Shown one piece after another: positions 4,899 to 20,835 of a stretch of DNA of 64,000 nt (the stretch's first letter is position 1; each line of letters begins with the position of its first letter). Below the pieces are notes generated by a model. It had not been told where the DNA came from. It worked only from the letters and a program-made list of their open reading frames with translations, and ran no database searches. This DNA is from Streptosporangium amethystogenes (GTDB taxonomy: Bacteria > Actinomycetota > Actinomycetes > Streptosporangiales > Streptosporangiaceae). The stretch spans positions 496,001 to 560,000 of the forward strand of contig NZ_JOEQ01000005.1 in NCBI RefSeq assembly GCF_000721075.1, given 5' to 3'. A program made the position numbers and the translations under genes.

Positions 4899-4938
4899 AT
4901 GCCAGCCATACAGACGTGAACGACAGAAGGAGCCACCG

Positions 4939-5310
4939 GTGGCCACCATCGAGGTAACCGAGAAGAACTTCAACGACATCGCCGATGAGGGGATCGTCCT
5001 GCTGGACTTCTGGGCGGCCTGGTGCGGACCGTGCCGCACCTTCGGGCCGATTTTCGAGAAGTCCTCCGCGAAGCACACGGACATCAAGTTCGGCAAGATC
5101 GACACCGAGGCCGAGCAGGCCCTCGCTCAGGGATTCGAGATCACGTCGATCCCGACGATCATGGCCATCCGGGACGGCATCGTCGTCTTCGCCCAGCCGG
5201 GCGCGCTGCCCGAGCCCGCTCTCGAGGACCTCATCGGCCAGGTCCGCGCACTCGACATGGACGCGATCCGCGCCGAGCTCGCCAACGAACTCGGTGTCCA
5301 GAAAGGCTGA
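4939..5310 (+). CDS. trxA: thioredoxin
   Basis: A 123-residue cytoplasmic thioredoxin starting with GTG at 4939, with an AGAAGGAG ribosome site 6 bases upstream. The redox motif W-C-G-P-C is at residues 28-32, preceded by the usual D-F-W-A-A strand. The cis-proline context (T-S-I-P-T) is present in the second half. About 15 extra C-terminal residues form a helix beyond the core fold. It would keep protein disulfides reduced, using thioredoxin reductase encoded elsewhere. The SigR-type promoter just upstream argues for induction by thiol oxidation. It is a single-gene unit, closed by a hairpin terminator 14 bp after the stop. Confidence 0.95.
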   Translation: MATIEVTEKNFNDIADEGIVLLDFWAAWCGPCRTFGPIFEKSSAKHTDIKFGKIDTEAEQALAQGFEITSIPTIMAIRDGIVVFAQPGALPEPALEDLIGQVRALDMDAIRAELANELGVQKG

Positions 5311-5323
5311 CACCGCTCGGGAG

Positions 5324-5357
5324 AGCCCCGCGCACGTCCGGTGGCGCGGGGCTTTCC
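5324..5357 (+). terminator. intrinsic terminator of trxA
   Basis: A 10-bp perfect stem (AGCCCCGCGC with GCGCGGGGCT, loop 5334-5343) is followed by TTTCCT. It is a standard intrinsic terminator on the plus strand. Confidence 0.85.
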
Positions 5358-5477
5358 TGTGCTCAGAGATCGCCTCAGCGGGCCGGGAACGGCCTCGCGG
5401 CCTCTCGATCGTTCGCGTGGATTCGACCTCCTCGCGGCCCGGGACCCTTCGAAGAGGCCGGGCCGCGAGGACGGGTG

Positions 5478-6809: not shown

Positions 6810-6874
6810 GACATACCAGGCTATTGCAACCGGCTGTGCGAACGGACCCGATTGTCCACATGGTGAGAAGGTCT

Positions 6875-8092
6875 TTATGCCTGGTGAGACCCCGCGGGAT
6901 CGGCGACGTGCTCGGGCAGGACGCCCAGGCCGATGAAGCGTCTGGCCAGCGGGCCCAGTACGGGAAGGCGGGAGACATCGCGCGGCAGCCGCACCGGGCG
7001 GGCGCGCTCGGTCAGCGCCGGCCGGATCAGCCGGTTCTGGACGACACGCTGGGCGAACTGGGTGATCACGGTGGGCGGGGTACGCCGCCGCTGGACCCTC
7101 GCGAGCAGCGGCTCGGGGATCTCGGCCCCGGCGGCGAGCGGTCCGGCCAGCAGGTTCGCGGCGGCGACCGCGTCCTGCACGGCCAGGTTGATGCCGACGC
7201 CGAAGACCGGCGACATGGCGTGCGCGGCGTCACCGATGACCAGCAACCCCGGCCGGTGCCAGCGGCGCAGCCGGTTGAGCGCGACCGACAGCACGCTGAC
7301 GTCCTCGAAGCCGGACAGCAGTCCTACCCGGTCCGCCAGGAAGGGCAGGAGTCTGGTGACCTGCTCGCGCAGCGCCGCCATCCCCGCCGAGCGCAGTGCC
7401 TCGAAGCCGTCCTTGGGGATCACGTAGGCGAGCTGCCAGTAGGTCTCGCGGTTGATCGACACCATCAGGTGACCCGCCGACACCCGCAGGAACGTCGCCT
7501 CGGAGTCGGTGGGCTCGCGCGGCAGCCGGAACCAGACCACGTCCATCGGGGCCCCGTGCTCCACGGGGACCAGTCCGGCGGCCTCACGCACGTCGGAGCG
7601 GCGGCCGTCGGCGGCCACGGTGAGCGTCGCGCGCAGCTCGTGCTCGCCGGAGGCGTCCCGGTAGCGCACCCCGCGCACCGCGTCGCCTTCGCGGATCACT
7701 CCGTGGACCTCGGACTTCATCAGGAGGTGGAAGTTCGGATACCTGGCGGCGGCACTGGTCAGCAGGTCGAGGAACTCCCACTGCGGCACGAAAGCGATGT
7801 ACTGATATTTGCCTTTAAGTCCTGACAGGTCGGCGATTGGCACCGTGGTGTCGTCGGTCTGGACCTCCAGCCCGTAAACCTTGCGGTGCGGGAGCCGGTG
7901 AAATTCCTCGGCCAGGCCGAGCTCGTCGAGGATCTGCAGGGTCGACGGATGGATGGTGTCGCCCCTGAAGTCGCGCAGGAAGTCGCCGTGCTTCTCCAGG
8001 AGCGTCACCTCGACGCCGGCCCTGGCCAGCAGTAGCGCGAGCATCGCCCCGGCGGGACCACCCCCGGCGATCACACATGTGTTCCGAGCCAT
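6875..8092 (-). CDS. FAD-dependent aromatic-type monooxygenase
   Basis: A 405-residue group A flavoprotein hydroxylase-like enzyme with ATG at 8092. The dinucleotide fold G-G-G-P-A-G is at residues 10-15, the D-G motif is near 160, and the FAD-ribityl motif G-D-A-A-H with the following S-P-V-F-G-V-G-I-N loop is near 285-300. These are the three fingerprints of the p-hydroxybenzoate hydroxylase family. It probably hydroxylates an aromatic or polyketide-like substrate with NAD(P)H and O2; the substrate cannot be read from the sequence. There is no adjacent biosynthetic gene. It is followed on the same strand by DAHP synthase, which may be chance or may hint at shikimate-derived chemistry. Confidence 0.85.
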   Translation of the reverse strand: MARNTCVIAGGGPAGAMLALLLARAGVEVTLLEKHGDFLRDFRGDTIHPSTLQILDELGLAEEFHRLPHRKVYGLEVQTDDTTVPIADLSGLKGKYQYIAFVPQWEFLDLLTSAAARYPNFHLLMKSEVHGVIREGDAVRGVRYRDASGEHELRATLTVAADGRRSDVREAAGLVPVEHGAPMDVVWFRLPREPTDSEATFLRVSAGHLMVSINRETYWQLAYVIPKDGFEALRSAGMAALREQVTRLLPFLADRVGLLSGFEDVSVLSVALNRLRRWHRPGLLVIGDAAHAMSPVFGVGINLAVQDAVAAANLLAGPLAAGAEIPEPLLARVQRRRTPPTVITQFAQRVVQNRLIRPALTERARPVRLPRDVSRLPVLGPLARRFIGLGVLPEHVADPAGSHQA

Positions 8093-8159
8093 AATTCATC
8101 ACCCCATGAAATTCTGGCACGGGATGCCGCCGAAGAGAACAGCGGGCGCGGTCTTTTCC

Positions 8160-8318
8160 TCGATCGGTGAGGCCCGCGTCCTCGTCATGCCGGGCAACGA
8201 CGCCTCCGTGGCGGTCTGCCGCAGGCTCGGCATGATCCCGGTCGGCCTGACCGGCCGCCTCTAGGGCATCGAGCTGGAGATGTTCCGCCTCGGCGCGAGG
8301 GCCGGGGTGTCCTCCGGT
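8160..8318 (+). pseudogene. GNAT acetyltransferase C-terminal relic
   Basis: In the plus-strand frame through 8106, residues M-P-G-N-D-A-S-V-A-V-C-R-R-L-G-M match the acetyl-CoA-proximal alpha4/beta7 region of GNAT enzymes. A TAG at 8262-8264 follows, at the place where family members usually have an aromatic residue. The frame then continues G-I-E-L-E-M-F-R-L, the normal GNAT C-terminus. The first two thirds of the gene are missing and the relic runs into the end of the GntR gene. It is non-functional unless the stop is a sequencing error, and even then it would lack the core fold. Confidence 0.6.
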
Positions 8319-9061
8319 CAGCGAATGCCGACGTAGAACCGTGTCTGGTCGCTGCGGTGCAGTGCGTAGTAGGCCTCGAACCGCGTGTCGTCGGGCATCC
8401 AGGCGACCGACTCGATGCCGAGCAGCGGCGTCGAGGTGGAGACCTCAAGCAGCGCGGCGTCCTCGCGGTTGGGGAAGGCGGCCTCGATCCACCGGTCGGC
8501 GGCGGCGGGCTCGATCCCGTAGCGCCGCCGCAGCAGGTCGTACAGTGACTGGTTCTCCAGCACGGCGCGCTCCAGGCCGGGCACCAGACGGGCGGGCAGG
8601 GCGGTGTCCACGAGCAGCCAGGGCTGCCCGTCGACGCGCCGGAGCCTGCGCAGCCTGACCACCTGCTCCCCGGGTGGGATCCGCAGCAGGGCGGCCTCCC
8701 GCTCGTCGGCCTCGCCGAGCGACTGGCGGATGGTCTGGGTCGTCACGCGGCGACCGGACTCCCGCAGGTCGTCGGCGGAGCCGGACATCGACCCGATGAA
8801 GTTCAGCTCGGTCTTGCGCGGTGAGACGAAGGCGCCCCGCCCCTTGATCTTATAGATCAGGCCCTGCTGCACGAGCTCGCGCAGGGCCTCCCTGACGACG
8901 GTTCGGGAGACCCCGAACATGTCGGTGAGCTCGGCCTCCGACGGCAGCGGCCGGTCCGCGCCGAACTCGCCGCTCTCGATGGTCGCCCGCAGCGCGCGCA
9001 TCAGTTGCATCCACAGCGGCTCCGTTCCGTCGCGGTCGAGGCGCGGATACGTCATCGTCAC
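8318..9061 (-). CDS. GntR/HutC-family repressor of the polyol operon
   Basis: A 247-residue regulator. I chose the GTG at 9061 because AAGGAGG lies 5 bases upstream; an ATG two codons later is the alternative. A winged helix-turn-helix occupies about residues 20-85 (P-S-E-A-E-L, then V-S-R-T-V-V-R-E-A-L). A UTRA-type effector domain occupies about 100-245, the layout of HutC-subfamily sugar and metabolite sensors. It is divergent from the ABC/kinase operon, and the 284-bp gap holds three CCTGTC...GACAGG-type palindromes. I infer that it binds these, represses the operon and itself, and is released by a pathway intermediate. Confidence 0.88.
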   Translation of the reverse strand: MTMTYPRLDRDGTEPLWMQLMRALRATIESGEFGADRPLPSEAELTDMFGVSRTVVREALRELVQQGLIYKIKGRGAFVSPRKTELNFIGSMSGSADDLRESGRRVTTQTIRQSLGEADEREAALLRIPPGEQVVRLRRLRRVDGQPWLLVDTALPARLVPGLERAVLENQSLYDLLRRRYGIEPAAADRWIEAAFPNREDAALLEVSTSTPLLGIESVAWMPDDTRFEAYYALHRSDQTRFYVGIR

Positions 9062-9108
9062 GGAAACCTCCTTGGGGGGCGTCCAGGAAAGCATTTCATA
9101 TGGGCAGA

Positions 9109-9122
9109 CCTGTCATGACAGG
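9109..9122. promoter_or_regulatory. putative GntR operator O1
   Basis: CCTGTCATGACAGG is a perfect 14-bp palindrome, 47 bp upstream of the GntR gene start. It is the first of three matching sites in the divergent promoter region and fits autoregulation. Confidence 0.75.
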
Positions 9123-9130
9123 ACGGCGAT

Positions 9131-9144
9131 CCTGTCGTGACAGG
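9131..9144. promoter_or_regulatory. putative GntR operator O2
   Basis: CCTGTCGTGACAGG differs from O1 by one base and starts 22 bp after it. That is two helical turns, so dimers on O1 and O2 would lie on the same DNA face. Confidence 0.75.
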
Positions 9145-9206
9145 AATCCGATGGTGCTGTCCGGATTCCCATCTATCTACCTACTGAGCAGGAACGAAAG
9201 AGGCCC

Positions 9207-9235
9207 TTGACATCCACGTAACGTGGATTTAGCGT
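9207..9235 (+). promoter_or_regulatory. housekeeping-type promoter of the polyol operon
   Basis: TTGACA at 9207-9212 and TAGCGT at 9230-9235 are spaced by 17 bases. This is a near-consensus vegetative (HrdB-type) promoter directed at the binding-protein gene. The predicted start, near 9242, falls inside operator O3. Confidence 0.75.
9212..9228. promoter_or_regulatory. 17-bp palindrome between -35 and -10
   Basis: ATCCACGTAACGTGGAT is a perfect inverted repeat with a single central base, filling the spacer of the operon promoter. Its sequence is unrelated to the CCTGTC sites, so it is likely bound by a second, unidentified regulator. A protein bound here would block RNA polymerase. Confidence 0.65.
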
Positions 9236-9236
9236 A

Positions 9237-9250
9237 CCTGTCACTACAGG
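9237..9250. promoter_or_regulatory. putative GntR operator O3
   Basis: CCTGTCACTACAGG keeps the CCTGT/ACAGG ends of O1 and O2, with two central changes. It begins 2 bp after the -10 box and covers the expected transcription start, a classical repressor position. Confidence 0.7.
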
Positions 9251-9345
9251 TCTGTAATGACTACGCCGCTACGCCCCCTATGAGCGATGAGTTCACGGCC
9301 TCGACTCGCACCGCCTCGGCGGACCTGCCTTCTCTGGAGACCATG

Positions 9346-10470
9346 ATGCGTATCCGTCCCACATCCCGGCACTTGCGTGCGGCCTCGGCGGCGTCACTGA
9401 CCGCCCTCGCGGTCCTGGCGGCCGGTTGCGGCGCCGACGACTCCGGCACCTCCGGAACCTCCGACACCGGCGCCGCCGCGCAGACCGCCGGCGAGAAGCC
9501 CTTCATCGCCCTGAGCAACGGCTTTATCGGCAACGGCTGGCGCCAGACGATGATCGCCAAGTTCGAGGAGGCGGCGGGCAAGGCCCAGGCCGACGGCCTG
9601 ATCAGCAAGTACAAGGTCGTCAACGCGCCGGGAGAGAACTCCGCGACCGAGCAGGTCGCCCAGATCAAGAGCCTCCTGCTGCAGAAGCCGGACGCGCTGC
9701 TCATCGACCCGGCCTCGCCCACCGCGCTCAAGCCGGTCATCCAGCAGGCGTGCTCCGCGGGCGTCACCGTCGTGGTCTTCGACTCCGCCATCGACTCCGA
9801 GTGTGCCTACGTGCTGCAGAACAGCTTCGTCGACTGGGCCACCTATGCGGCCAAGCCGCTGCTGGAAGGCATCGGGGGCAAGGGCAACGTCATCGTCAGC
9901 CGGGGTGTCGTCGGCTCGCAGCCCGAGGCCGAGATGCTGGAGACCACCAAGAAGATCCTCGGTGAGTACCCCGGTGTGAAGACCGTCGCGACGGTGAACG
10001 GGATGTGTGACGGCGCCACCGCGCAGAAGGCCGTGCTCGGCGTGCTGTCGAGCGTGCCGAAGGTCGACGGCGTCGTCGGCTGCGGCGACGGCTACGGCGT
10101 CGCCCAGGCCTTCACCACGGCGGGCAAGCCGGTTCCCGCGGTGACGTTCGAGACCAACGGCCGCGCGCTGAGCTACTGGAAGGACAACAAGATCGACAAC
10201 GGTTCGGTGGCGGTCATGTCCGACCCGGGCCAGTCGGTCGCCGCGCTGTGGCAGGCACTCGACCTGCTGGAGAAGCGGGACATTCCCAAGCAGATGACCT
10301 TCCCGATCGTCCTGGTCGAGCAGAAGGACCGTGACACCTGGGCGAGCATCCTCAAGCCCGACGAGTACGCCGCCTGGCCCTGGACGCGTGAGCTCTTCCG
10401 CGAGCAGGTCAAGGCCGTGCAGACCGGCGGAGCGCCGGTGCAGCCGCCGATCCCGACGGCCGCCGGATAG
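9346..10470 (+). CDS. sugar/polyol ABC transporter substrate-binding lipoprotein (CUT2 type)
   Basis: A 374-residue lipoprotein. I chose the second of two adjacent ATGs (9343, 9346) because GGAGA then stands at a normal distance. The signal peptide ends in the lipobox L-A-A-G-C with the lipidated Cys at residue 28. The mature part has the Peripl_BP_4 layout of the ribose/AI-2/polyol binding proteins: an early beta strand with a G-N-G-W ligand loop, D-P-A-S-P in the first lobe, and an F-D-S strand before the hinge. The ligand is unknown and the protein does not look closely like enterobacterial LsrB. It is the first gene of a seven-gene plus-strand operon, repressed by the GntR protein by inference. 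Confidence 0.87.
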   Translation: MRIRPTSRHLRAASAASLTALAVLAAGCGADDSGTSGTSDTGAAAQTAGEKPFIALSNGFIGNGWRQTMIAKFEEAAGKAQADGLISKYKVVNAPGENSATEQVAQIKSLLLQKPDALLIDPASPTALKPVIQQACSAGVTVVVFDSAIDSECAYVLQNSFVDWATYAAKPLLEGIGGKGNVIVSRGVVGSQPEAEMLETTKKILGEYPGVKTVATVNGMCDGATAQKAVLGVLSSVPKVDGVVGCGDGYGVAQAFTTAGKPVPAVTFETNGRALSYWKDNKIDNGSVAVMSDPGQSVAALWQALDLLEKRDIPKQMTFPIVLVEQKDRDTWASILKPDEYAAWPWTRELFREQVKAVQTGGAPVQPPIPTAAG

Positions 10471-10498
10471 GCGGGGAAGGCGCAGGGGAGGCTGCCTC

Positions 10499-12043
10499 AT
10501 GCACGTCGACAACTTCGCCGCGAGGCCGCACGCGGCCTCGCGGGAGGAAGGCGGGAGACCGTCCGGGCAGCAGCCCGTCGTGATCGCGAGGGGCGTGACC
10601 AAGACGTACGGGCGCACCCGGGCCCTCACCGGTGTCGACCTTGAGGTCCGGGCCGGCGAGGTGCTCGGCCTCGTCGGCCACAACGGGGCCGGCAAGAGCA
10701 CGCTGATGCGCGTCCTCGCCGGGCTGGAGGCCTGCGACGAGGGCATGGTCACGGTGTGCGGGCGCGACGCCTCGGGCGAGGCCGGGCCGCGGGCCGGGGA
10801 CTTCCGCGGCGTGCGGATGGCCTACCAGGAGACGTCGCTCTGCCCCGACCTCACGATCGCGGAGAACATCTGGGTCTCCTCACGGCACTGCCTTCCCCGG
10901 ATGGGCTGGCGGCGGGCGGCCGGTAACGGCGCCCGGCGCAGGCTCGACGAGATGTTCCCCGGCCACGGGGTGGCACCGGGCGACCGGGTCGAGGACCTGT
11001 CACTGGCCCAGCGCCAGATGGTCGAGATCGCCCGGGCCAGCCTGGTCGACCGGCTAGACCTGCTGATCCTCGACGAGCCCACCGAGTCCCTCGGCCCGGA
11101 CGCCGCGCGCTCGCTGTACGACTACGTCCGAACCCTCACCGCGGGTGGCGTCGCCGTGCTGCTCATCTCGCACCGTATCCGGGAGATCCTCTCGGTGGCC
11201 GACCGCGTCGCCGTGCTGCGCGACGGAGCGGTCATCGCCGAACGGCCCGCGAGCGGACTCGGCGAGCACGACGTACTGACCCTGATGGGGGCCGAGGTCG
11301 CCGAGAGGGCCGGGAACGAGCGGGTCACGGCCGCCGAGGGCGCCTCCGAGGATCGGCCGGTGCTGGCGGAAATGCGCGGCACCACCGCTGCCGGACTGCG
11401 TGACGTCTCCCTGCGGGTCGGCGTGGGCGAGGTCGTGGGCCTGGCCGGACTGGCCGGCCAGGGCCAGCAGGAGGTGCTCGAACGCCTGTGGCGCCCGGTG
11501 CGGCGCGACACGAAGGTGCGCGGCACCCGGGCCTATGTGCCGGGTGACCGGCAGCGCTCGGGGGTCCTGCCGCTGTGGAGCGTGGCGGAGAACCTCGTGG
11601 TGAGCGCGATGCGCGGTATCGCACGCCGTGGCCTGCGCCGCCCCGCCGAGGAGCGCGCGGTCGTGCGCGACTGGGTCGAGCGCCTCGCGATCCGAGGTGG
11701 CCCGGACGCGGCGATGACCGACCTCAGCGGCGGCAACCAGCAGAAGGTGATCGTCGCCAGGGCCTTCGCCTCGGCGGCCGACCTCGTCCTGCTCGACGAC
11801 CCCTTCCGGGGGGTCGACGTGCACACCAAGACCGATCTCTACGGCCTCATCCGCCAGGAGGCGGCCCAGGGCCGGAGCGTTGTCTGGTATTCGAGCGAGA
11901 ACGCAGAGATGGCCCACTGCGACCGGGTCTACGTCTTCCGGGCCGGCCGGGTGGTCGCGGAGCTGACCGGGGCGGAGATCTCCGAGGAGAGGATCATCGC
12001 CGTCTCGTTCGCCGAGTCCGATGGAGCGCAGAACCATGAGTGA
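10499..12043 (+). CDS. CUT2 ABC transporter ATP-binding protein (two ABC domains)
   Basis: A 514-residue protein with ATG at 10499 and a GGGGAGG ribosome site. The N-terminal ABC domain has an intact Walker A (G-H-N-G-A-G-K-S-T), then L-S-L-A-Q-R-Q-M as signature and L-I-L-D-E-P-T as Walker B. The C-terminal ABC domain has a degenerate Walker A (G-L-A-G-Q-G-Q-Q-E), but keeps signature L-S-G-G-N-Q-Q-K and L-L-D-D-P Walker B. This asymmetry is normal for RbsA/LsrA-type ATPases. It would energise the two permeases that follow. Its stop overlaps the first permease start by 8 bases, indicating translational coupling. Confidence 0.93.
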   Translation: MHVDNFAARPHAASREEGGRPSGQQPVVIARGVTKTYGRTRALTGVDLEVRAGEVLGLVGHNGAGKSTLMRVLAGLEACDEGMVTVCGRDASGEAGPRAGDFRGVRMAYQETSLCPDLTIAENIWVSSRHCLPRMGWRRAAGNGARRRLDEMFPGHGVAPGDRVEDLSLAQRQMVEIARASLVDRLDLLILDEPTESLGPDAARSLYDYVRTLTAGGVAVLLISHRIREILSVADRVAVLRDGAVIAERPASGLGEHDVLTLMGAEVAERAGNERVTAAEGASEDRPVLAEMRGTTAAGLRDVSLRVGVGEVVGLAGLAGQGQQEVLERLWRPVRRDTKVRGTRAYVPGDRQRSGVLPLWSVAENLVVSAMRGIARRGLRRPAEERAVVRDWVERLAIRGGPDAAMTDLSGGNQQKVIVARAFASAADLVLLDDPFRGVDVHTKTDLYGLIRQEAAQGRSVVWYSSENAEMAHCDRVYVFRAGRVVAELTGAEISEERIIAVSFAESDGAQNHE

Positions 12044-12998
12044 GACTCTCGGGCCGGCCCTGCTGCCGAGCCGGGCGCGGATGCGCCGGACGGCCCCGGC
12101 CGTGGTCAGCGCCGTCGCCATGATCGCGATGATCGCCGTCTGCGCGTCGCTGCAGCCGGACGTGCTGAGCGTGTCCGGGCTGTCGCTGGTCCTCTCGGCG
12201 ACCGTGCCCCTGGTCATCGCGGCCCAGGCCCAGATGACGCTGATGGCGGTCGGTGACATCGACCTCGGCATCGGTAACTTCGTCGGCCTGGTCACCGTGA
12301 TCACGGCGACCACGCTGGTGACAGACCCGCTCCTCGGAGGCCTGATCCTGCTCGGGCTCGTCGCCTCCTACACCGTTCTCGGCATTCTCATCCACCTGCG
12401 CAAGGTGCCGTCGCTCATCGCCACCCTCGGCGCGTCGTTCGTCTGGCTGGGGCTGGGCATGTTCGTCCTGCCGACACCCGGCGGAACGACCCCGGAGTGG
12501 CTGGCGGCCTTCGGCATGTGGCAGCCCGCCGGGTTCCCGGCGCCGCTGCTGCCGATCCTCCTCGTCGCCGCGCTGGTCTACCTGCTCAGCGCGCGCAGCA
12601 CCCTCGGGGTCCGGATGCGCGCCCTGGGCAGCAACCCGGTGGCCCTGGAGCGGGCGGGCCTGCGCCCGCTGGCGTCGCGGGCCATCGCCTACACCGCCGC
12701 GGGCGGGCTCGGTGTGCTGTCCGGTCTCGTACTGGCCTCCCAGACCGGGGGCGGCGACGTGTCGTCGGCCTCCAGCTACACCCTGATGACGGTGGCGGCG
12801 GTGATCCTCGGCGGCGGCTCCTTCTACGGGGGCAGCGCGGTGCCGTGGGGAGTGGTGATCGGTGGTGTGACCCTCGGCCTGGTCAGCGTGGTCCTCAGCC
12901 TGCTCGATGTGCCGACCAACATGCAGTCGGCGGTTCAAGGCGTGATCGTCCTGGCCGTGCTCGCCGGACGTGTCCTGGTCGGAAAGGTGCTGCGATGA
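12036..12998 (+). CDS. CUT2 ABC transporter permease 1
   Basis: A 320-residue RbsC/LsrC-like membrane protein with about eight to ten hydrophobic helices. The ATG at 12036 lies inside the end of the ATPase gene, with GGAG 9 bases upstream. The conserved cytoplasmic stretch (R-A-L-G-S-N-P-V-A-L-E-R-A-G, about residues 193-206) that contacts the ATPase is present, as is the G-G-G-S-F-Y-G-G-S segment of this family. It should pair with the second permease as a heterodimeric channel. Start and stop both overlap neighbours, which argues for a fixed subunit ratio. Confidence 0.9.
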   Translation: MSETLGPALLPSRARMRRTAPAVVSAVAMIAMIAVCASLQPDVLSVSGLSLVLSATVPLVIAAQAQMTLMAVGDIDLGIGNFVGLVTVITATTLVTDPLLGGLILLGLVASYTVLGILIHLRKVPSLIATLGASFVWLGLGMFVLPTPGGTTPEWLAAFGMWQPAGFPAPLLPILLVAALVYLLSARSTLGVRMRALGSNPVALERAGLRPLASRAIAYTAAGGLGVLSGLVLASQTGGGDVSSASSYTLMTVAAVILGGGSFYGGSAVPWGVVIGGVTLGLVSVVLSLLDVPTNMQSAVQGVIVLAVLAGRVLVGKVLR

Positions 12999-14008
12999 AC
13001 ATCCGCGCGCTCGTCGCGCGTCCGTGGATCTGGGGTTTCGCCGCCGCGGCGCTCGTCTGGCTGATGATCCTGGCCATCTCCGGCCAGGGGGGCGGCCAGA
13101 CGGTCTCCCTGGCCCTGTCCCTGGCGCCCTACCTGGTCATCGTGGGGCTCGGGCAGATGCTCGTCGTCACCGCCGGTCCCGGCAACATCGACGTCTCCGT
13201 GGCGCCGATCATCTCCCTCGCCGGATTCGTCTCGGTGCTGGCGGCCTTCTCCACCGGCTCGGCGACGGTGGGCGTCCTGGCGGGCGTCGGTGCGGGCCTC
13301 GTCATCGCGGCGATCAGCACGGTGGCGATCCTCGGCCTCTCCGTTCCGCCGATCATCGCCACCCTGGCCGCCGGGCTCATCGCCTCCTCGGGCACGCTGT
13401 CGCTGGCGAACGGCTTCGGCGCGGTGCCCGATCCGGGGCTGCGGAGCCTGCTCAACCTGCGCCCGGCGGGCATCCCCATCCTCGCCGTGGCCATCGTGGT
13501 CGTGACCGTCCTGGTCATCGCGCTGCTGCGCGGCACGACCTACGGCCGTTCGCTGATCGCGGTGGGACAGAACCGCCGGGCGGCCGAGCGCGCCGGAATC
13601 CCCGTCGCGCGGATCATCGCGGTGACCTACCTGGCCAGCGGTGCGCTGGCCGGTCTGACCGGAGCCCTGCTGGCCGCCTACATCGCCCCCTCCGCGGACC
13701 TCGGCACGCGCTACCTGCTCGACTCGGTGGCCGTCGTCGTGATCGGCGGAACGCTCATCTCGGGTGGACGGGCCGTGCCCGTCGGTGTCTGGGGGGCCGC
13801 GCTCTTCTTCATCCTGCTGGACGGCCTGGTCAACCTCGTGGGCTGGAGCAGCGCGGCGCAGAACCTCCTCAAGGGCGGTCTGGTGCTGCTGGTCCTCTTC
13901 CTCGCCGGTGGCGGTGACCGCGTCGCCGGCACATCCTCCCGTTTCCGACGGCGGCCGCGTCCCGCGGCCGCCACCACCACAACCACTGGAGAGAACACCC
14001 ATGGCTGA
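12995..14008 (+). CDS. CUT2 ABC transporter permease 2
   Basis: A 337-residue RbsC/LsrD-like permease whose ATG overlaps the previous stop (ATGA at 12995-12998). The hydrophobic pattern matches permease 1, and the ATPase-contact loop reads [13 protein letters not shown] (about residues 185-200). It ends in a basic then Thr-rich cytoplasmic tail that overlaps the aldolase start by 8 bases. Two different permeases per importer are typical of Lsr-type and some polyol-type CUT2 systems, whereas ribose systems use one. Confidence 0.9.
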
Positions 14009-14888
14009 CACCGACGGTCTGCTCGACGCCCGCGACTTCGGCGGCGCCGCCTCTGTGACCGGCGGCTTCCACGTCAAGGGCGCACAGGCCCAGGACTGGG
14101 GTCTGCAGAACCGGCTCGCGCGCATCTTCAGGGCCGACACCGGCCGGACCGTGATGCTCGCGTTCGACCACGGCTACTTCCTCGGCCCGATGGCCGGCCT
14201 TGAGCGCATCGACCTCAACATCGCCCCGCTGGTGCCCAGCGCCGACGCGATCATGCTGACCCGGGGCGTGCTGCGCACCAGCATCCCGCCGGCCACCGAC
14301 GCCGGCATCGTGCTGCGCGCCAGCGGTGGCCCGAGCGTGCTGCGCGACCTCTCCGACGAGCACATCGCCATGGACATGGAGGACGCCCTGCGGCTCAACG
14401 CCGCGGCCGTGGCCATCCAGGTCTTCGTCGGCAGCGAGAACGAGTCGCGGTCGATCGCCAACCTCGCCACGCTGGTGGACGCCGGCCAGCGGCACGGTGT
14501 CGCCGTGCTCGGCGTCACCGCCGTCGGCAAGGACATGGTCCGCGACGCCCGCTACTTCCGGCTGGCCACCCGGATCAGCGCGGAGATGGGCGCGCACATC
14601 GTCAAGACGTACTACGTCGAGGAGGGCTTCGAGACCGTCACCGCGAGCTGCCCGGTGCCGATCATCGTCGCGGGTGGCAAGAAGCTGCCCGAACTCGACG
14701 CCCTGACGATGGCCTACCGGTCGATCCAGGAGGGTGCCGCCGGCGTCGACATGGGCCGCAACATCTTCCAGAGCGAGAACCCCGCCGGCATGCTCGCGGC
14801 GATCCGCGCCGTCGTGCACGACGAGATGAAGCCCGAAGTGGCCTACCAGCTCTTCAAGGACCACTCGGCCGCCAACGCCGCGTCCTGA
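14001..14888 (+). CDS. LsrF-like class I aldolase/thiolase
   Basis: A 295-residue DeoC/FbaB-superfamily TIM barrel that resembles E. coli LsrF (3-hydroxy-5-phosphonooxypentane-2,4-dione thiolase) along its whole length. Conserved blocks are [32 protein letters not shown] with the presumed Schiff-base Lys at residue 202, and [10 protein letters not shown]. LsrF ends phospho-AI-2 breakdown by CoA-dependent cleavage to DHAP and acetyl-CoA. Here it sits with a FAD dehydrogenase and an FGGY kinase and without LsrG or LsrR. It may instead split a ketose phosphate formed by those enzymes. Family placement is firm; substrate is inference. Confidence 0.88.
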
Positions 14889-14902
14889 CCCCCTCTGGGG
14901 CT

Positions 14903-14932
14903 CGGGCCCCGGCGCGAGACCGCCGGGGCCCG
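14903..14932 (+). terminator. intercistronic hairpin between aldolase and dehydrogenase
   Basis: A perfect 12-bp stem (CGGGCCCCGGCG) with a 6-base loop lies 15 bp after the aldolase stop. It has no T-run. It may partly terminate or protect the upstream message, letting transporter and aldolase be made in excess of the dehydrogenase and kinase. Confidence 0.6.
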
Positions 14933-14957
14933 GCCCCGTCATCCCCCGGGAGCTCCC

Positions 14958-16628
14958 ATGTCGCACCAACCAGCCGGATCTGACGACGTCGTCGACCTCG
15001 CCGTCATCGGAGCCGGTATCAACGGGCTCGCCATAGCCCGTGACGCCGCCGCCCGCGGCCTGCGCGTCGTCGTCGTCGACCGCGCCGACGTGGGCTCGGG
15101 AACGTCAAGCACGTCCAGCCGGCTGATTCACGGCGGGCTGAAGTACCTCGAACGCTATGACTTCAACCTCGTGCGGGAGTCGATCCGTGAGCGGCACCTG
15201 CTGTTCCGCAACGCCCCGCACCTCGTTCACGACTACCCCATGCTGATCCCCTCCTACGCGGGTGACAGCAGGCCCGGCCCGCTGATCCGGCTCGGGCTGG
15301 CCGCCTTCGACGTCCTGTCGACGGGGCGCAGGCACCGCCGCAGCCGTAGCGTGTCCCTCCGCACGGTGGCCCGCCGGTGGCCCACGCTGTCGAGGCGCGG
15401 ACTGCGCGGGGCCTCGCTGTTCCCCGACGCGCAGGTGCCGTGGGCCGAGCGGCTCTGCGTTGAGTTGCTCCTCGACGCCCGGCGGCTCGGCGCGCGGGTG
15501 CTCACCCACACCACGGTCACCGGGCTGGTCGTGGAGAACGACCGGGTCGTCGGGATACGGGCCGAGGACAACGCCTCCGGCGCGCGAACCGAGATCCGGG
15601 CCGCGGTCACGGTGAACGCGGCCGGCCCGTGGATCGACAGGATCCTCGACGGGCAGCTGGCCAGCCGGCGCCTCAACGGCGGCACCAAGGGCAGCCACAT
15701 CATCGTCGACGCCTTCCCCGGCGCACCCGACACCTGCATCTTCTTCGAGGCGGCCGCCGACCATCGGCCGATCTTCGTCCTCCCCTGGGAGGGCCGCTAC
15801 ATGCTGGGCAGCACGGACCTGACCTACGAGGACGATCTCGACGAGGTCATCACCAGCGACGAGGAGATCGACTACCTGCTCGCCGAGACCAACCGGATCT
15901 TCCCAAGCGCCGGCCTCACCCCCGGCGACGTGCTCTACAGCGTGGCCGGCGTCCGGCCCCTGCCGTACACCGCCGGGATCTCCGACAACGCCAAGATCAG
16001 CCGTGGGCACACGGTGCACAGCCACGCCCCGGCCCACCCGGGGCTGTTCACGGTCATCGGCGGCAAGCTGACCACTCACCGCGCCCTCGCCGAGGACGTC
16101 ACCGACGCGGTGCTGCGCGTGCTCGGCCGCACTCGCCGGCGCTGCCTCACCCGCTCCCGTGCCTTCCCCGGGGCCGACACCGCCGACTGGCCGACTTTCA
16201 GCGCGGACTTCATGCGCTCTTCGCCGCTCACCCCGGCGCAGTCGCGCCGGCTGCTCGACGTCTACGGCGTACGGGCCCGCAGGGTGCTCGAACTCGCTGA
16301 GACCGACGCCACACTCGCCGAGGTCGTCGACGAGGAGACCGGCGCGCTCGCCGCCGAGGTGGTCATGGCGGTGCGCGAGGAGGGCGCCGTGACGCTGGGG
16401 GACATCCTGCTACGACGTACCCTGATTGGACTCGGTCCCGACATGGGCCTGAAGGCGGCCGCGGCCTGCGCCGACATCGCGGTACGCCACCTCGGCTGGG
16501 ACGAAGGGCGGGCCCGCGCCGAGATCACCGGCTACGAGGCCGAACTGCGGCGCTTCAGGCCACGGGTTCTGGCCCCCTCGGTCACCCCGTCGGCCACACT
16601 GCGGAGTAGCGACAGGAGGACCTCGTGA
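14958..16628 (+). CDS. GlpD/EryB-like FAD-dependent polyol-phosphate dehydrogenase
   Basis: A 556-residue DAO-family flavoenzyme with ATG at 14958 and GGGAG just upstream. The FAD fold is at residues 15-23 (V-I-G-A-G-I-N-G), then S-S-R-L-I-H-G-G-L-K-Y-L-E, K-G-S-H-I-I-V, L-G-S-T-D, Y-S-V-A-G-V-R-P-L and G-G-K-L-T-T-H-R. All are diagnostic of respiratory glycerol-3-phosphate dehydrogenases. The C-terminal helical domain (about 410-540) is also present. Context argues against simple glycerol use: the kinase next door is not GlpK-like. The closest pathway analogy is EryB, which oxidises erythritol phosphate and is annotated as GlpD in many genomes. Electrons would go to the quinone pool at the membrane. 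Confidence 0.88.
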   Translation: MSHQPAGSDDVVDLAVIGAGINGLAIARDAAARGLRVVVVDRADVGSGTSSTSSRLIHGGLKYLERYDFNLVRESIRERHLLFRNAPHLVHDYPMLIPSYAGDSRPGPLIRLGLAAFDVLSTGRRHRRSRSVSLRTVARRWPTLSRRGLRGASLFPDAQVPWAERLCVELLLDARRLGARVLTHTTVTGLVVENDRVVGIRAEDNASGARTEIRAAVTVNAAGPWIDRILDGQLASRRLNGGTKGSHIIVDAFPGAPDTCIFFEAAADHRPIFVLPWEGRYMLGSTDLTYEDDLDEVITSDEEIDYLLAETNRIFPSAGLTPGDVLYSVAGVRPLPYTAGISDNAKISRGHTVHSHAPAHPGLFTVIGGKLTTHRALAEDVTDAVLRVLGRTRRRCLTRSRAFPGADTADWPTFSADFMRSSPLTPAQSRRLLDVYGVRARRVLELAETDATLAEVVDEETGALAAEVVMAVREEGAVTLGDILLRRTLIGLGPDMGLKAAAACADIAVRHLGWDEGRARAEITGYEAELRRFRPRVLAPSVTPSATLRSSDRRTS

Positions 16629-18160
16629 CAGCCCCGGACACGTGCTACATCGGTGTCGACATCGGCCTGACGGCCTCGAAGGTCGCGGCCTTCGACACCG
16701 AGGGGCGGGAACTCGGCGTCGTGCACGCCCGCACCCCCCGCACCAGCGTGACCGCGCACCGCCACGACGTCGACATGCCCGGGCTGGCCGACACGGTCAT
16801 GTCGCTGCTCGGCGAGCTCACCGGGAAGCTGGCCGCCGACGGATACACCCCGGCGGGCATCGGGGTGGCGGCCCATGGTAACGGACTGTATCCGGTCGAC
16901 GCCGCTCTGAGGCCGGTCGGACCGGCCATCGCGTCGTCGGACAGCCGGGCCCAGCGGATCGTGGACGCGATCCCGGAGCGGGAGGCCAGGCGGCTGGCCA
17001 GGGAGACCGGCTCCATCCCGTGGGCCGCGCAGCCCGCCGTGCTGTTGCGCTGGCTGCACGACGTCGAGCCGGAGAGCTACCAGGCCACCCGGTGGGCACT
17101 GTCCTGCAAGGACTGGGTCACCGCGCAGCTCACCGGCGTGCCGAGCGCCGACTACAGCGACGCCAGCGCCTTCGGCATGGTGGCCCTCGACACCCGCGCC
17201 TACACCCCGACGGCGCTGGAGCTGGTGGGGCTGCCGGCGAGCGACCTCGACCGGTTCCCCCCGCTGCGCCAGTCCAGTGACGTGGTCGCCGGGCTGAGCG
17301 CCCAGGCCGCGGCGCGTACCGGACTCCCCGAGGGACTGCCGGTGATCGCCGGTTGCATGGACTGTGTGGCGGCGACGCTCGGCGCCGGGGGGCGCGGCCT
17401 CGGAGACGTGACGATCATCGTCGGGACGTGGGCCATCAACGGGGCCGTGGTGCCCGCCCGCACCCCGGCCCCCGAGGTCACCTTGAGCGCGCTGATGCCC
17501 GACCCGGCCACGATGCTGGCCATGGAGGTCGCGCCGACCTCGGCCGCCAACCTCGAATGGCTGGCGTGCGCGTCGGCGCCGCACGACCAGGTCGGCGGCC
17601 TGCTCGCGGCGGACCTGCTCAGGGAGGCGGCCATGGTGCCACCGGGCGCGGAGGGCCTGCTGTTCCTGCCCTTCGTCAACGGAGCCCCCGAACACCCCGC
17701 GGCGTCGGGGACGTTCCTCGGCATCTCCGGGGTGCACCGCCGCGGGCATCTCACCCGCGCGGTCATCGAGGGGGTCGCCCAGTATCACCGGGTCCAGCTC
17801 GACCGGGTCCTGGCCAGCGGAGCCGACATCGGGGACCGGCCGTGGCGGCTGGCCGGTGGCGGCGCCCGATCCGAGGTCTGGGCGCAGATCTTCGCCGATG
17901 TGCTGGGGCGGCCGGTCCGCCGTCAGCTCACCAGCGAGCTGGGAGCACGCGGCGTCGCGTCGCTGCTGCCCGCGGCGCTCGGCCACGATCTCCAGCCGTG
18001 GTCGGTCAGTGACGAGGACGACCTGTGCGTGTTTCCGGGCCCGCAGCGGGAGGCGTATCTGCGGCACTCGGAGGTCTTCGACCGGACGCTGGCCGGCATG
18101 TCGTCCGTCTGGTCGGAGGTCGATCGGTACCGTACGGCCGGTCCCGTCGACGCCGGGTAG
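16625..18160 (+). CDS. FGGY-family polyol/ketose kinase (LyxK/EryA-like)
   Basis: A 511-residue carbohydrate kinase. The GTG at 16625 overlaps the dehydrogenase stop (GTGA) behind AGGAGG. The N-terminal ATPase fold begins G-V-D-I-G-L-T-A-S-K. Blocks G-V-A-A-H-G-N-G-L, S-S-D-S-R-A, G-T-W-A-I-N, P-T-S-A-A-N-L-E-W and G-G-G-A-R-S (adenine site) fit the L-xylulose/erythritol kinase branch better than glycerol or xylulose kinases. It would phosphorylate the imported polyol or ketose before oxidation and cleavage by the two upstream enzymes. It is the last gene of the operon and faces cebR convergently across a hairpin. Confidence 0.88.
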   Translation: MTAPDTCYIGVDIGLTASKVAAFDTEGRELGVVHARTPRTSVTAHRHDVDMPGLADTVMSLLGELTGKLAADGYTPAGIGVAAHGNGLYPVDAALRPVGPAIASSDSRAQRIVDAIPEREARRLARETGSIPWAAQPAVLLRWLHDVEPESYQATRWALSCKDWVTAQLTGVPSADYSDASAFGMVALDTRAYTPTALELVGLPASDLDRFPPLRQSSDVVAGLSAQAAARTGLPEGLPVIAGCMDCVAATLGAGGRGLGDVTIIVGTWAINGAVVPARTPAPEVTLSALMPDPATMLAMEVAPTSAANLEWLACASAPHDQVGGLLAADLLREAAMVPPGAEGLLFLPFVNGAPEHPAASGTFLGISGVHRRGHLTRAVIEGVAQYHRVQLDRVLASGADIGDRPWRLAGGGARSEVWAQIFADVLGRPVRRQLTSELGARGVASLLPAALGHDLQPWSVSDEDDLCVFPGPQREAYLRHSEVFDRTLAGMSSVWSEVDRYRTAGPVDAG

Positions 18161-18368: not shown

Positions 18369-19376
18369 TCAGGCGGAGGATCGCTCGACCAGGTGGGTGT
18401 CGAGTATCACCACCGGCTGCTCCAGGTGCTCGCCGTTGATGCGGGAGACGAGGAGGTGGGCCATCTGCCGGCCCATCGACTCGGTGGGCTGGTGCACGCT
18501 GGTCAGGGCGGGGGAGGAGTGCGCCCCGGCGGGCGAGTCGTCGAAGCCGATCACCGCGACGTCGCCGGGGATGCTCTTGCCCTCCTCGCGCAGCACCCGC
18601 ATCGCGCCCAGTGCCATCGGGTCCGAGGCGGTGAAGACGGCGTCCAGGTCGGGGTTCTCGGCGAGCAGCTTGCGCATTTCGGCCATGCCGCTCTCCTCGC
18701 TGAAGTCGCCGTACGCCACGATCTCGCTCAGGCCGGTCGCGAGCAGCGCGTCGCGGTAGCCCGCGAGCCGGTCCACGCCCACGCCCATGTCCTGCGTTCC
18801 CGCGATGGTGGCGATCCGGCGACGACCTCTGCCCAGCAGGTACTTGACCGCCTGTCTGGCTCCGGCCCGGTTGTCCACGTCGACGTAGCTGTAGGGGGTG
18901 AGGCCGACAGGGCGGCCTCCGATGACCGTCGGCACGCCCATCGCCTCCAGCCTTCCCGGTAGCGGGTCGGCACCGTGCAGGGAGATCAGCAGCACCCCGT
19001 CGACGTGCTGTCCCGTCAGATAGTGCTCCAGCCGCTCGTGCTCCTGCTTCGACTGGGCCATCGCGAGGATCAGCTGCAGCCCGGTCTCGGACAGTGCGGA
19101 ACCGATGCCGCGGATGGTTCCCGCGAAGTACGGTTCGTCGAAGACCCGCAGCTCGGATTCCGAGACGACCAGCGCCACGGTGTCCGTGCGCCTGGTGACC
19201 AGCGCGCGCGCAGCCCGGTTGGGCACGTAGCCCAGCTCCTGGATCGCCTGCAGCACGGCGTCACGGGCCTTCTCGCTCACCTTCGGTGAACCGTTGATGA
19301 CCCGTGACACCGTGCCTCGGCCGACTCCGGCCAGGGCCGCGACCGCCTCAAGCGTCGGACGACGGTCGCCGTTCAT
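18369..19376 (-). CDS. cebR: LacI-family cellobiose repressor
   Basis: A 335-residue LacI/GalR regulator with ATG at 19376. The helix-turn-helix is residues 8-27 (T-L-E-A-V-A-A-L-A-G-V, then T-V-S-R-V-I-N), followed by the hinge helix P-N-R-A-A-R-A-L and a sugar-binding core ending P-T-E-S-M-G-R. It is 34 bp after bglC on the same strand, at the end of a cebEFG-bglC unit. Both sites expected for CebR, TGGGAGCGCTCCCA, stand upstream of cebE. In streptomycetes cebR usually lies upstream of cebE, so this tail-end position places the repressor under its own target promoter. Assignment as CebR rests on context plus the operator. Confidence 0.88.
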   Translation of the reverse strand: MNGDRRPTLEAVAALAGVGRGTVSRVINGSPKVSEKARDAVLQAIQELGYVPNRAARALVTRRTDTVALVVSESELRVFDEPYFAGTIRGIGSALSETGLQLILAMAQSKQEHERLEHYLTGQHVDGVLLISLHGADPLPGRLEAMGVPTVIGGRPVGLTPYSYVDVDNRAGARQAVKYLLGRGRRRIATIAGTQDMGVGVDRLAGYRDALLATGLSEIVAYGDFSEESGMAEMRKLLAENPDLDAVFTASDPMALGAMRVLREEGKSIPGDVAVIGFDDSPAGAHSSPALTSVHQPTESMGRQMAHLLVSRINGEHLEQPVVILDTHLVERSSA

Positions 19377-19410
19377 GTGTTTCAGCCCCCCGTGGTGAAT
19401 TCGCCGGCCC

Positions 19411-20835
19411 CTATTCTGTCGGACCGTTCAGGCCTCCGCGCCTGATGGTCCCGGCATACCAGAGAGCGCTCTCCTTGGGAACTCTAGTTTGCGTCTCATA
19501 GTCCACGTGCACCAGTCCGAACCGCTTTCCGTATCCCCACGCCCATTCGAAGTTGTCCATCAGGGACCAGGCGAAGTAGCCCTCCAGCGGGATCCCCGCC
19601 TCGATCGCGGTGTGGCAGGTGCGCAGGTGGGCGTCGATGTAGTCCACCCGGTCACGGTCGTGAACGACGCCGTCGGGTCCCACGACGTCGTCGAAGGCCG
19701 CGCCGTTCTCCGAGATGACCAGCGGGACGCGCGGGTACTCGTCGGCCAGCCGCCGCAGGATCTCCAGCAGCCCCGAGTCGTCGATCTCCCAGCCCATGGC
19801 CGTCACGGGACGTCCGCCCTCGACGAACGAGACGTGCTCGCTGCCGACCCAGGGTGAGCCGGTGTCGGTGGGCGCCGCCGCGGCCGACGCCGCGCCGCCG
19901 GGGGTGCCGGAGACGGTGAAGCGGCTGTAGTAGTTGATCAGCAGCTTGTCCAGCGGCGTTGAGATGATCTCCATGTCCCCGTCCTGGACGAGCCCGGCCG
20001 GCCGGCCGAGGTCCTCCAGCACGTCGGCCGGGTACTCACCCTTGAGCAGGGCGTCCAGGAAGAAGCGGTTCTGCAGCCCGTCGATGCGGCGGACGGCGTC
20101 CTGGTCGGCCTCCGAGGCGGTCTGCGGCGTGATCGCGTACAGGTTGACGCAGCCGCCGATGACCGTCTCCGGGCGCTGGGCCCGCATCGCCTGCGCGGCC
20201 AGGCCGTGCGCGAGCAGCAGGTGGTGGGCGGCGTACACCGCCTTGTCGGGCTCGCGCCGCCCGGGGGCGTGCTCACCCGAGGCGTACCCGAGGAACGCCG
20301 AGCACCAGGGCTCGTTGACGGTGCTCCAGTTGCGGACCCGGTCGCCCAGCGCGTCGTGCACGGCCGCCGCGTAGTCGGCGAAGCGCTTCGACGTGTCCCG
20401 TGACGGCCAGCCGCCCGCGTCTTCCAGGGGCTGGGGCAGGTCCCAGTGATAGAGCGTCACCCACGGGTCGACGCCCCGGGAGAGAAGCTCGTCGACCAGG
20501 CGGCTGTAGAAGTCGACGCCCTTGAGGTTGACGGGGCCGTGCCCCTCGGGCTGGATCCGGGGCCAGGAGATGGAGAACCGGTACGCGCCGAGGCCGAGTT
20601 CGGCCATCAGCCGCACGTCGTCCCGGTAGCGGTTGTAGTGGTCGATGGCGATGTCGGCGTGCTCGCCGTTCACCACCCGGCCCGGCTGCTTGACGAAGGT
20701 GTCCCAGATGGAGATGCCGCGGCCATCCTCCGAGACGGCGCCTTCGATCTGGTAGGCGGAGGTGGCCGCGCCCCAGACGAAACCTGTCGGGAACACCAGA
20801 TCCGGGGTCTGAATCCGCGTCTCTTGCGTGGTCAC
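19411..20835 (-). CDS. bglC: GH1 beta-glucosidase
   Basis: A 474-residue cytoplasmic family 1 glycoside hydrolase without a signal peptide. The acid/base motif T-V-N-E-P has its Glu at residue 175, and the nucleophile motif I-S-E-N-G has its Glu at 376. The N-terminal F-x-W-G-A-A-T-S-A-Y-Q-I-E-G signature is also present. It would hydrolyse cellobiose or short cellodextrins to glucose after uptake by the adjacent CUT1 importer. The GTG at 20835 overlaps the permease stop (GTGA). Expression should be released from CebR by cellobiose. Confidence 0.95.
   Translation of the reverse strand: MTTQETRIQTPDLVFPTGFVWGAATSAYQIEGAVSEDGRGISIWDTFVKQPGRVVNGEHADIAIDHYNRYRDDVRLMAELGLGAYRFSISWPRIQPEGHGPVNLKGVDFYSRLVDELLSRGVDPWVTLYHWDLPQPLEDAGGWPSRDTSKRFADYAAAVHDALGDRVRNWSTVNEPWCSAFLGYASGEHAPGRREPDKAVYAAHHLLLAHGLAAQAMRAQRPETVIGGCVNLYAITPQTASEADQDAVRRIDGLQNRFFLDALLKGEYPADVLEDLGRPAGLVQDGDMEIISTPLDKLLINYYSRFTVSGTPGGAASAAAAPTDTGSPWVGSEHVSFVEGGRPVTAMGWEIDDSGLLEILRRLADEYPRVPLVISENGAAFDDVVGPDGVVHDRDRVDYIDAHLRTCHTAIEAGIPLEGYFAWSLMDNFEWAWGYGKRFGLVHVDYETQTRVPKESALWYAGTIRRGGLNGPTE

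Follow-up and report, generated by a model that had tools for sequence, protein, structure and literature searches.

A seven-gene operon on the plus strand of a Streptosporangium amethystogenes contig, at positions 9343-18160 of the 64-kb window (the whole stretch of DNA analysed), encodes a CUT2 sugar ATP-binding cassette (ABC) importer, an LsrF-like enzyme, a GlpD-like dehydrogenase and an FGGY kinase, and diverges from the gene of a GntR/UTRA regulator. The operon is real, conserved, locally regulated and catabolic. We tentatively assign it, at somewhat below even chances, to the dedicated and locally regulated breakdown of a 1-deoxy ketopentose (1-deoxyxylulose or a stereoisomer), in which the LsrF-like enzyme would act as a coenzyme A (CoA)-dependent thiolase. 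The genes are arranged as follows.

8318-9094, minus strand: GntR-family regulator with a UTRA domain, likely start near 9061 (Pfam GntR 66.3 bits, UTRA 125.4 bits)
9343-10470, plus strand: CUT2 solute-binding lipoprotein, start at 9343 or 9346 (Peripla_BP_4, 178 bits)
10499-12043, plus strand: CUT2 ABC ATPase (ABC_tran, two stretches)
12036-12998, plus strand: CUT2 permease A, start at 12021 or 12036 (BPD_transp_2, 60.3 bits)
12995-14008, plus strand: CUT2 permease B (BPD_transp_2, 78.5 bits)
14001-14888, plus strand: LsrF-like enzyme, proposed CoA-dependent thiolase (NF006081, 470.6 bits against a cut-off of 297)
14958-16628, plus strand: GlpD-like flavin adenine dinucleotide (FAD) dehydrogenase, proposed sugar-phosphate C4 dehydrogenase (DAO and DAO_C)
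16625-18160, plus strand: FGGY kinase (FGGY_N/C; tree; signature)

The tight coupling described in an earlier note on this DNA was confirmed, all eight genes including that of the regulator being present. Overlaps of 8 bases join the ABC ATPase to permease A (if the latter starts at 12036) and permease B to the LsrF-like gene, overlaps of 4 bases join permease A to permease B and the GlpD-like gene to the kinase gene, and the intergenic gaps measure 28 and 69 bases. This order is more than a chance arrangement, because in 15 of the best 80 loci of LsrF relatives elsewhere the LsrF, GlpD-like and FGGY kinase genes follow one another as they do here, beside the same importer. The 80 loci were kept from a scan of one genome per species in 84,980 species, which returned at least 587 LsrF relatives; the 15 are L002-L009, L011, L013, L018-L021 and L045, of which L006 and L018 run into a contig end and L006 has a split GlpD-like match. 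Within the stretches examined, the GlpD-like query found no match in the other 65 loci, six of which (L028, L029, L033, L042, L048, L060) carry an LsrK-like gene. Where a kinase was found, the LsrF gene adjoined either the GlpD-like/kinase pair or an LsrK-like kinase. In Microbacterium halotolerans a single scaffold carries both kinds of cluster, one each (L021, L033); in one Microbacterium assembly the two kinds are on separate contigs (L018, L029).

Genomes were also sampled at three taxonomic levels. At the family level LsrF scored over the cut-off in 18 of 200 genomes, the host included; 14 of the 17 other genomes contain the whole operon, and the remaining three have an LsrK-like gene (42-44% identical to E. 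coli LsrK) with no GlpD-like match in the stretch examined, two of them on short contigs. The co-occurrence of the LsrF-like gene with dehydrogenase and kinase across actinomycetes, for which the earlier note had asked, was found both in the scan and in the family sample, and the loci of the two exclude that the presumed aldolase is never encoded beside the other enzymes elsewhere. In the class sample, LsrF was detected in 7 of 394 genomes and the operon kinase, at E <= 1e-75 with three candidates scored per genome, likewise in 7 of 394. Six genomes were common to both sets, with kinase scores above 870 bits; the remaining LsrF genome carries an LsrK-like gene (L134), and the seventh kinase match (G830, 320 bits) had no other operon gene nearby. 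In the phylum sample LsrF was over the cut-off in 40 of 396 genomes, and the GlpD-like query matched none of the 13 LsrF regions fetched (L136-L148); most actinobacterial LsrF-like genes therefore lie outside operons of this kind. Between five operon proteins the pairwise distances correlated at 0.94-0.99 across 13 loci and, among the eight Streptosporangiaceae loci, at 0.84-0.98. In the LsrF tree, whose bootstrap had not settled and from whose count 70 unlabelled rows were left out, the 15 operon rows are united in a single clade (99/98), separate from the LsrK-associated rows. A second clade of operon copies consists of seven Microbacteriaceae loci (L011, L013, L018-L021, L045) and L135, which groups with them in that tree.

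The LsrF-like protein exceeds the NF006081 equivalog cut-off by 174 bits and is 58% identical to E. coli LsrF. Lys203 of the latter, which is the residue replaced by Ala in the solved variant 4p2v, and its Asp57-His58 are invariant across 11 operon sequences and E. coli LsrF. At the position of the MJ0400 tyrosine, which we take to be catalytic in class I fructose-bisphosphate (FBP) aldolase, the 11 LsrF rows displayed show a gap, with Thr on one side and Ala or Gly on the other. The NF006081 model names 3-hydroxy-5-phosphonooxypentane-2,4-dione as the LsrF substrate, and 3,4,4-trihydroxy-2-pentanone 5-phosphate is the hydrate of this compound. The latter, the product of LsrG, is converted by LsrF with CoA to dihydroxyacetone phosphate (DHAP) and acetyl-CoA according to an excerpt of PMC8016206, and an excerpt of PMC7828210 likewise gives DHAP and acetyl-CoA as the products. 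From its sequence, we propose that the LsrF-like enzyme of the operon is a CoA-dependent thiolase as well.

In the route proposed here, a C5 sugar ending in CH3-CO- would be imported by the CUT2 system and phosphorylated at C5 by the FGGY kinase. The GlpD-like flavoenzyme would then oxidise C4, the carbinol beside CH2-O-phosphate, as GlpD does on glycerol 3-phosphate, to give CH3-CO-CHOH-CO-CH2OP, that is, 3-hydroxy-5-phosphonooxypentane-2,4-dione, the substrate of LsrF. Transfer of the acetyl group to CoA by the LsrF-like enzyme would yield DHAP and acetyl-CoA, and either the sugar or its phosphate may relieve repression by the GntR protein at three palindromes. The GlpD-like enzyme would take the place of LsrG, which isomerises phosphorylated autoinducer 2 (AI-2) to the same compound in its hydrated form. 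GlpD-type oxidation of a 1-deoxypentulose 5-phosphate would produce the LsrF substrate, so that CoA-dependent cleavage to acetyl-CoA and DHAP would be no less plausible than cleavage by an aldolase. The sequence of import, phosphorylation, oxidation and cleavage put forward earlier is a fair inference and was retained. The proposed chemistry would account for a GlpD-like enzyme standing in for LsrG, for a kinase other than LsrK and for the lack of aldehyde-handling genes in the core common to both clades (26 loci, rough gene calls). As to the origin of such a sugar, excerpts of PMC3424233 report that purified pyruvate dehydrogenase (PDH) forms 1-deoxy-D-xylulose from pyruvate and glyceraldehyde, that XylB, an FGGY kinase, phosphorylates this product, and that the wild-type PDH makes too little of it in vivo to replace 1-deoxy-D-xylulose 5-phosphate (DXP) synthase, DXS.

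The GlpD-like enzyme has the DAO and DAO_C FAD domains of the GlpD kind and scored below both GlpD equivalog cut-offs (341.3 vs 360 and 317.4 vs 352). Arg55 and Lys62, which may lie near the substrate phosphate, were found in 10 of 10 operon rows and also in a Rhizobium leguminosarum relative; the same two positions are Lys/Arg in E. coli GlpD and in the Roseibium GlpD-like enzyme, and Arg/Arg in five plasmid relatives (L149-L153). The Roseibium enzyme is 35% identical to that of the operon, and the best matches in the plasmid collection, from Shinella and Rubrobacter, are 47-49% identical. A protein search listed the best 120 of 7995 matches to this enzyme, without gene context; what is said here of outside relatives is drawn from seven regions of the plasmid collection.

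The importer belongs to the CUT2 sugar ABC family by its Peripla_BP_4 binding protein, twin-domain ATPase and BPD_transp_2 permeases. The mechanical open reading frame (ORF) call places the binding-protein start at 9223; we refined it to 9343-9346, because a palindrome occupies 9237-9250 and a LAAGC lipoprotein signal follows residues 41-42 of the long ORF. The binding protein is 88% identical to the solved structure 4pe6 of Thermobispora bispora, the title of which names no ligand and for which no paper was found in the open-licence literature. An AlphaFold model (mean predicted local distance difference test score, pLDDT, 80.9) gave neighbours at the family level, with ribose- and polyol-type binders tied. 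LsrB was not among the best 50 structural neighbours, a result that excludes nothing. The ABC ATPase scored far under the cut-off with each of the xylose, arabinose, LsrA and ribose models.

Several observations weigh against a 1-deoxy ketopentose as substrate. GlpD-type enzymes presumably act on an L-configured carbinol, to which the L series or the 4-epimer would be better suited, and GlpD relatives nearer than the plasmid ones may exist. After 4pe6, the structural neighbours of the binding protein are a mix of ribose-type and M. smegmatis carbohydrate binders, and these M. smegmatis proteins we take to be polyol binders. The best plasmid GlpD matches, from Shinella, Rubrobacter and Arthrobacter (L149-L151), adjoin genes for PDH-like E1/E2 or E2/E3 proteins. 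Class II FBP aldolase (FBA)-like genes, kinases and CUT2 importers accompany them in Shinella and Rubrobacter (L149, L150), and the Rubrobacter kinase is GlpK-like; such clusters resemble polyol or acyloin pathways. A class II aldolase/short-chain dehydrogenase (SDR) gene directly follows the kinase gene in every one of the eight second-clade copies, and neither this route nor the polyol alternative described next explains it well. Finally, 5 of the 26 loci (L005 2002-4373, L009, L120, L122, L123) have close to the operon a gene that by eye resembles a glycerol kinase, accompanied in three of them (L005, L120, L123) by a channel-like gene.

These observations bear on the main alternative, in which a tetritol, pentitol or deoxyhexitol would be imported, phosphorylated at C1 and converted by the GlpD-like enzyme, through oxidation at C2, to a ketose 1-phosphate, which the LsrF-like protein would split, as a class I aldolase, into DHAP and an aldehyde. 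Besides the company of the Shinella and Rubrobacter GlpD relatives, the M. smegmatis binders, the glycerol-kinase-like gene and the aldolase/SDR of the Microbacteriaceae copies, this alternative is favoured by the presence of an EryA-type kinase within the clade of the operon kinase. On the other side, the aldolase tyrosine is missing from the LsrF rows displayed, the core of both clades has neither an aldehyde dehydrogenase nor a triokinase, a second aldolase would be redundant in the Microbacteriaceae clade, and the operon kinase is not GlpK-like. Taken together, we consider the polyol pathway unlikely, though it carries appreciable weight.

The plasmid operons of Shinella and Rubrobacter resemble the operon described here in their GlpD-like enzyme, CUT2 genes, FGGY-family kinase and a DHAP-type aldolase; they differ in that LsrF is replaced by a class II aldolase and by PDH/acetoin-dehydrogenase-like genes. 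For the E1 proteins of both, which had raised the idea of an acetoin dehydrogenase, PDH models scored best, below their cut-off. No description of the Shinella/Rubrobacter/Arthrobacter plasmid pathway, nor of a cluster on R. leguminosarum pRL9b4 (L154, 7392-17572), was seen in the open-licence literature. The latter cluster shares an FGGY kinase of the same LyxK/EryA-like group and the GlpD-like enzyme with Arg55/Lys62. It differs in its class II FBA, its sugar-phosphate isomerase and the binding protein of its CUT2 importer, annotated 'autoinducer 2', and no LsrF is annotated in this stretch.

The aldolase/SDR of the second clade is bifunctional. Its best model is PRK08324.2-4, with which it scores 822 bits, the cut-off being 831 (an example is L011 14092-16029), and the zinc motif is kept in its aldolase domain, for which an AraD-like C4 epimerase is our guess. 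At 23 other operon loci examined, several of them representing the same species twice, this gene was absent after the kinase.

In the kinase tree, in which LyxK and EryA are on long branches, the operon kinase falls together with LyxK of E. coli and an FGGY kinase of Rhizobium leguminosarum (89/92, the order inside being unresolved), at the next level with the Roseibium EryA-type and Shinella kinases (99/97), and apart from XylB, LsrK and GlpK. XylB was nevertheless its best profile, far below the cut-off. The five specificity positions described in an excerpt of PMC3245297, transferred through a low-identity alignment, read G-N-A/G-D-I in 7 of 7 operon kinases compared. The same positions are R-E-S-D-Q in E. 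coli LsrK, R-E-T-D-Q in 4 of 4 actinomycete LsrK-like kinases beside LsrF, and G-D-C-D-S in the Roseibium kinase, which we ourselves assign as EryA. LyxK shares the group but differs in signature at two or three of the five positions. The operon kinase belongs to a signature group that matches none of the references used and lies near LyxK and EryA. Homologues of it at 80-82% are listed for Streptomyces and Kitasatospora.

The grouping with LyxK, an L-xylulose kinase, and the name L-xylulokinase given to homologues by several sources would also suit an ordinary L-ketopentose or a longer ketose, which after the same oxidation would be thiolysed to DHAP and glycolyl-CoA or another acyl-CoA. The G-N-A/G-D-I signature differs from G-K-G-D-V, however, and LyxK is long-branched. 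Ordinary pentulose phosphates can moreover be disposed of more simply, via the pentose phosphate pathway. We consider such a substrate improbable, and distinctly more so than a polyol.

Two systems that share components with the operon were compared with it directly, and very probably, as far as tested, it serves neither AI-2 nor erythritol. The E. coli Lsr operon (lsrKR-ACDBFG, L082) likewise combines a CUT2 importer, an FGGY-family kinase and an LsrF relative, and uptake and breakdown of AI-2 would be consistent with the LsrF-family enzyme and the importer. In place of LsrG, however, the operon has the GlpD-like enzyme; no LsrG gene lies between the operon genes and none matched in the genome, in a search that had no positive control. 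The regulator is a GntR protein with UTRA instead of LsrR. The binding protein reached 34.9 bits with the LsrB model against a cut-off of 384 and is far from LsrB, and the LsrK model NF008187 gave 97.1 bits against 528 for the kinase, whose signature is not R-E-S/T-D-Q, unlike that of the actinomycete LsrK-like kinases. AI-2, which the earlier note had kept as an alternative substrate, is therefore disfavoured to the point of being very improbable.

The framing as an erythritol-type pathway, prompted by the pair of GlpD-like and FGGY genes, was not supported. In the alphaproteobacterial ery clusters, represented by Roseibium L155 (an assignment of our own), an FGGY kinase does adjoin a GlpD-like dehydrogenase, but a TIM-barrel protein, triose-phosphate isomerase (TPI) and RpiB are added, none of which occurs in the operon, which has LsrF. 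EryC, EryH (TPI) and EryI (RpiB) are not among the eight operon genes, to which this comparison was confined. Together with the low identity of the Roseibium GlpD-like enzyme and the differing kinase signature, this leaves an EryA-EryB type pathway the least probable of the explanations considered.

The divergent position of the GntR/UTRA gene is kept in the 13 other operon loci of the scan whose contig extends far enough, and the starts chosen in L002, L007 and L008 suggest the alternative start at about 9061. Its designation as a 'HutC-type' repressor stood as regards the GntR and UTRA domains, but not as regards HutC itself, the model of which gave 102.9 bits where its cut-off is 220. Between the genes of the regulator and the binding protein lie the following elements.

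9109-9122: operator-like palindrome 1, CCTGTCATGACAGG, exact match to CCTGTNNTGACAGG
9131-9144: operator-like palindrome 2, CCTGTCGTGACAGG, exact match to CCTGTNNTGACAGG
9207-9212, plus strand: TTGACA, -35-like element of a putative binding-protein promoter, read by eye
9237-9261: operator-like palindrome 3, CCTGTCACTACAGG, overlapping GTCACTAC-N6-GTAATGAC (match to CCTGTNNTGACAGG at 9237-9250)

The pattern CCTGTNNTGACAGG was derived from this gap itself. Its only exact matches in the host genome (9,441,077 bases, 9.44 Mb, in 229 contigs) are these three upstream palindromes (four strand-wise matches at three places), and a reversed-pattern control had 0 matches there. Allowing up to two mismatches added one place within the window, at 44165-44178. 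The regulator looks dedicated to its own operon because the palindromes match nowhere else in the genome, and repression by it would be exerted at these sites. No second regulon target for exact CCTGTNNTGACAGG was found genome-wide, hence other genes give no hint of the substrate. In each of the eight Streptosporangiaceae loci compared (the window, L002-L005 and L007-L009) the relaxed pattern CYTGTNRTGACARG has two or three sites in the gap and none outside it; of six Microbacteriaceae loci, two have one site and four have none.

What is new here is the combination, every single enzyme being from a known family, and no description of the gene set was found in the open-licence literature, subscription papers lying outside that search. 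More hesitantly than for the substrate itself, we suggest that the operon may be an outlet for 1-deoxypentuloses that bypasses AI-2 chemistry, and that LsrF may be a general 2,4-diketopentose-phosphate thiolase of which AI-2 breakdown is one use. Different operons would then feed LsrF differently, through the LsrG isomerase, through GlpD-like oxidation, or perhaps through a 2-hydroxyacid dehydrogenase or a cupin. LsrF is easily read as a marker of AI-2, and an annotation as AI-2 degradation would be wrong for this actinomycete lineage. If the assignment is true, sugars from the DXP pathway or from side reactions of pyruvate dehydrogenase would have a metabolic fate, and for 1-deoxypentuloses the operon would provide three enzymes, a candidate sensor and a binding protein with a close relative of solved structure.

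Downstream, genes for a LacI regulator and a glycoside hydrolase family 1 (GH1) beta-glucosidase adjoin the operon (18369-20835, minus strand). They were rejected as members: among the operon loci of the family, class and phylum samples such genes lie near L127 alone, and a weak LacI match was seen in L006 alone of the 15 loci of the scan. Flanking genes common to at least three of the 26 loci were compared with a home-made gene caller based on GC content at third codon positions (GC3), the source of the rough gene calls; only three clusters spanned both clades, all of them antisense-frame calls inside core genes.

The 59 of the best 80 LsrF loci outside the 15 operon and six LsrK loci come from Chlorobi, Planctomycetes, Acidobacteria and others; their LsrF-like proteins are 60-70% identical to the query, and most lack Lsr genes within the stretch examined. 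The lone LsrF-like genes of Chlorobi had raised the suspicion of an FBP aldolase function, which was rejected. Class II FBP aldolase PF01116 was matched in 5 of 5 Chlorobi genomes, and the glycolytic class I family PF00274 in 4 of 5, each of the four full matches holding one stop codon; PF01791, the family that includes LsrF, was matched in 5 of 5 (six matches). Other FBP aldolases being present, there is no gap for LsrF to fill there.

A second type of LsrF cluster was observed in actinomycetes, in which a kinase with the LsrK signature adjoins LsrF (L029 91-3980 and L048 8375-11262, both Microbacterium; L128, about 4925-8925, from the family of the host). In L029 and L128 a D-2-hydroxyacid dehydrogenase gene lies upstream of the LsrK-like kinase gene, and a small cupin follows LsrF, in the usual place of LsrG, in L029 (by eye) and L048 (Pfam).

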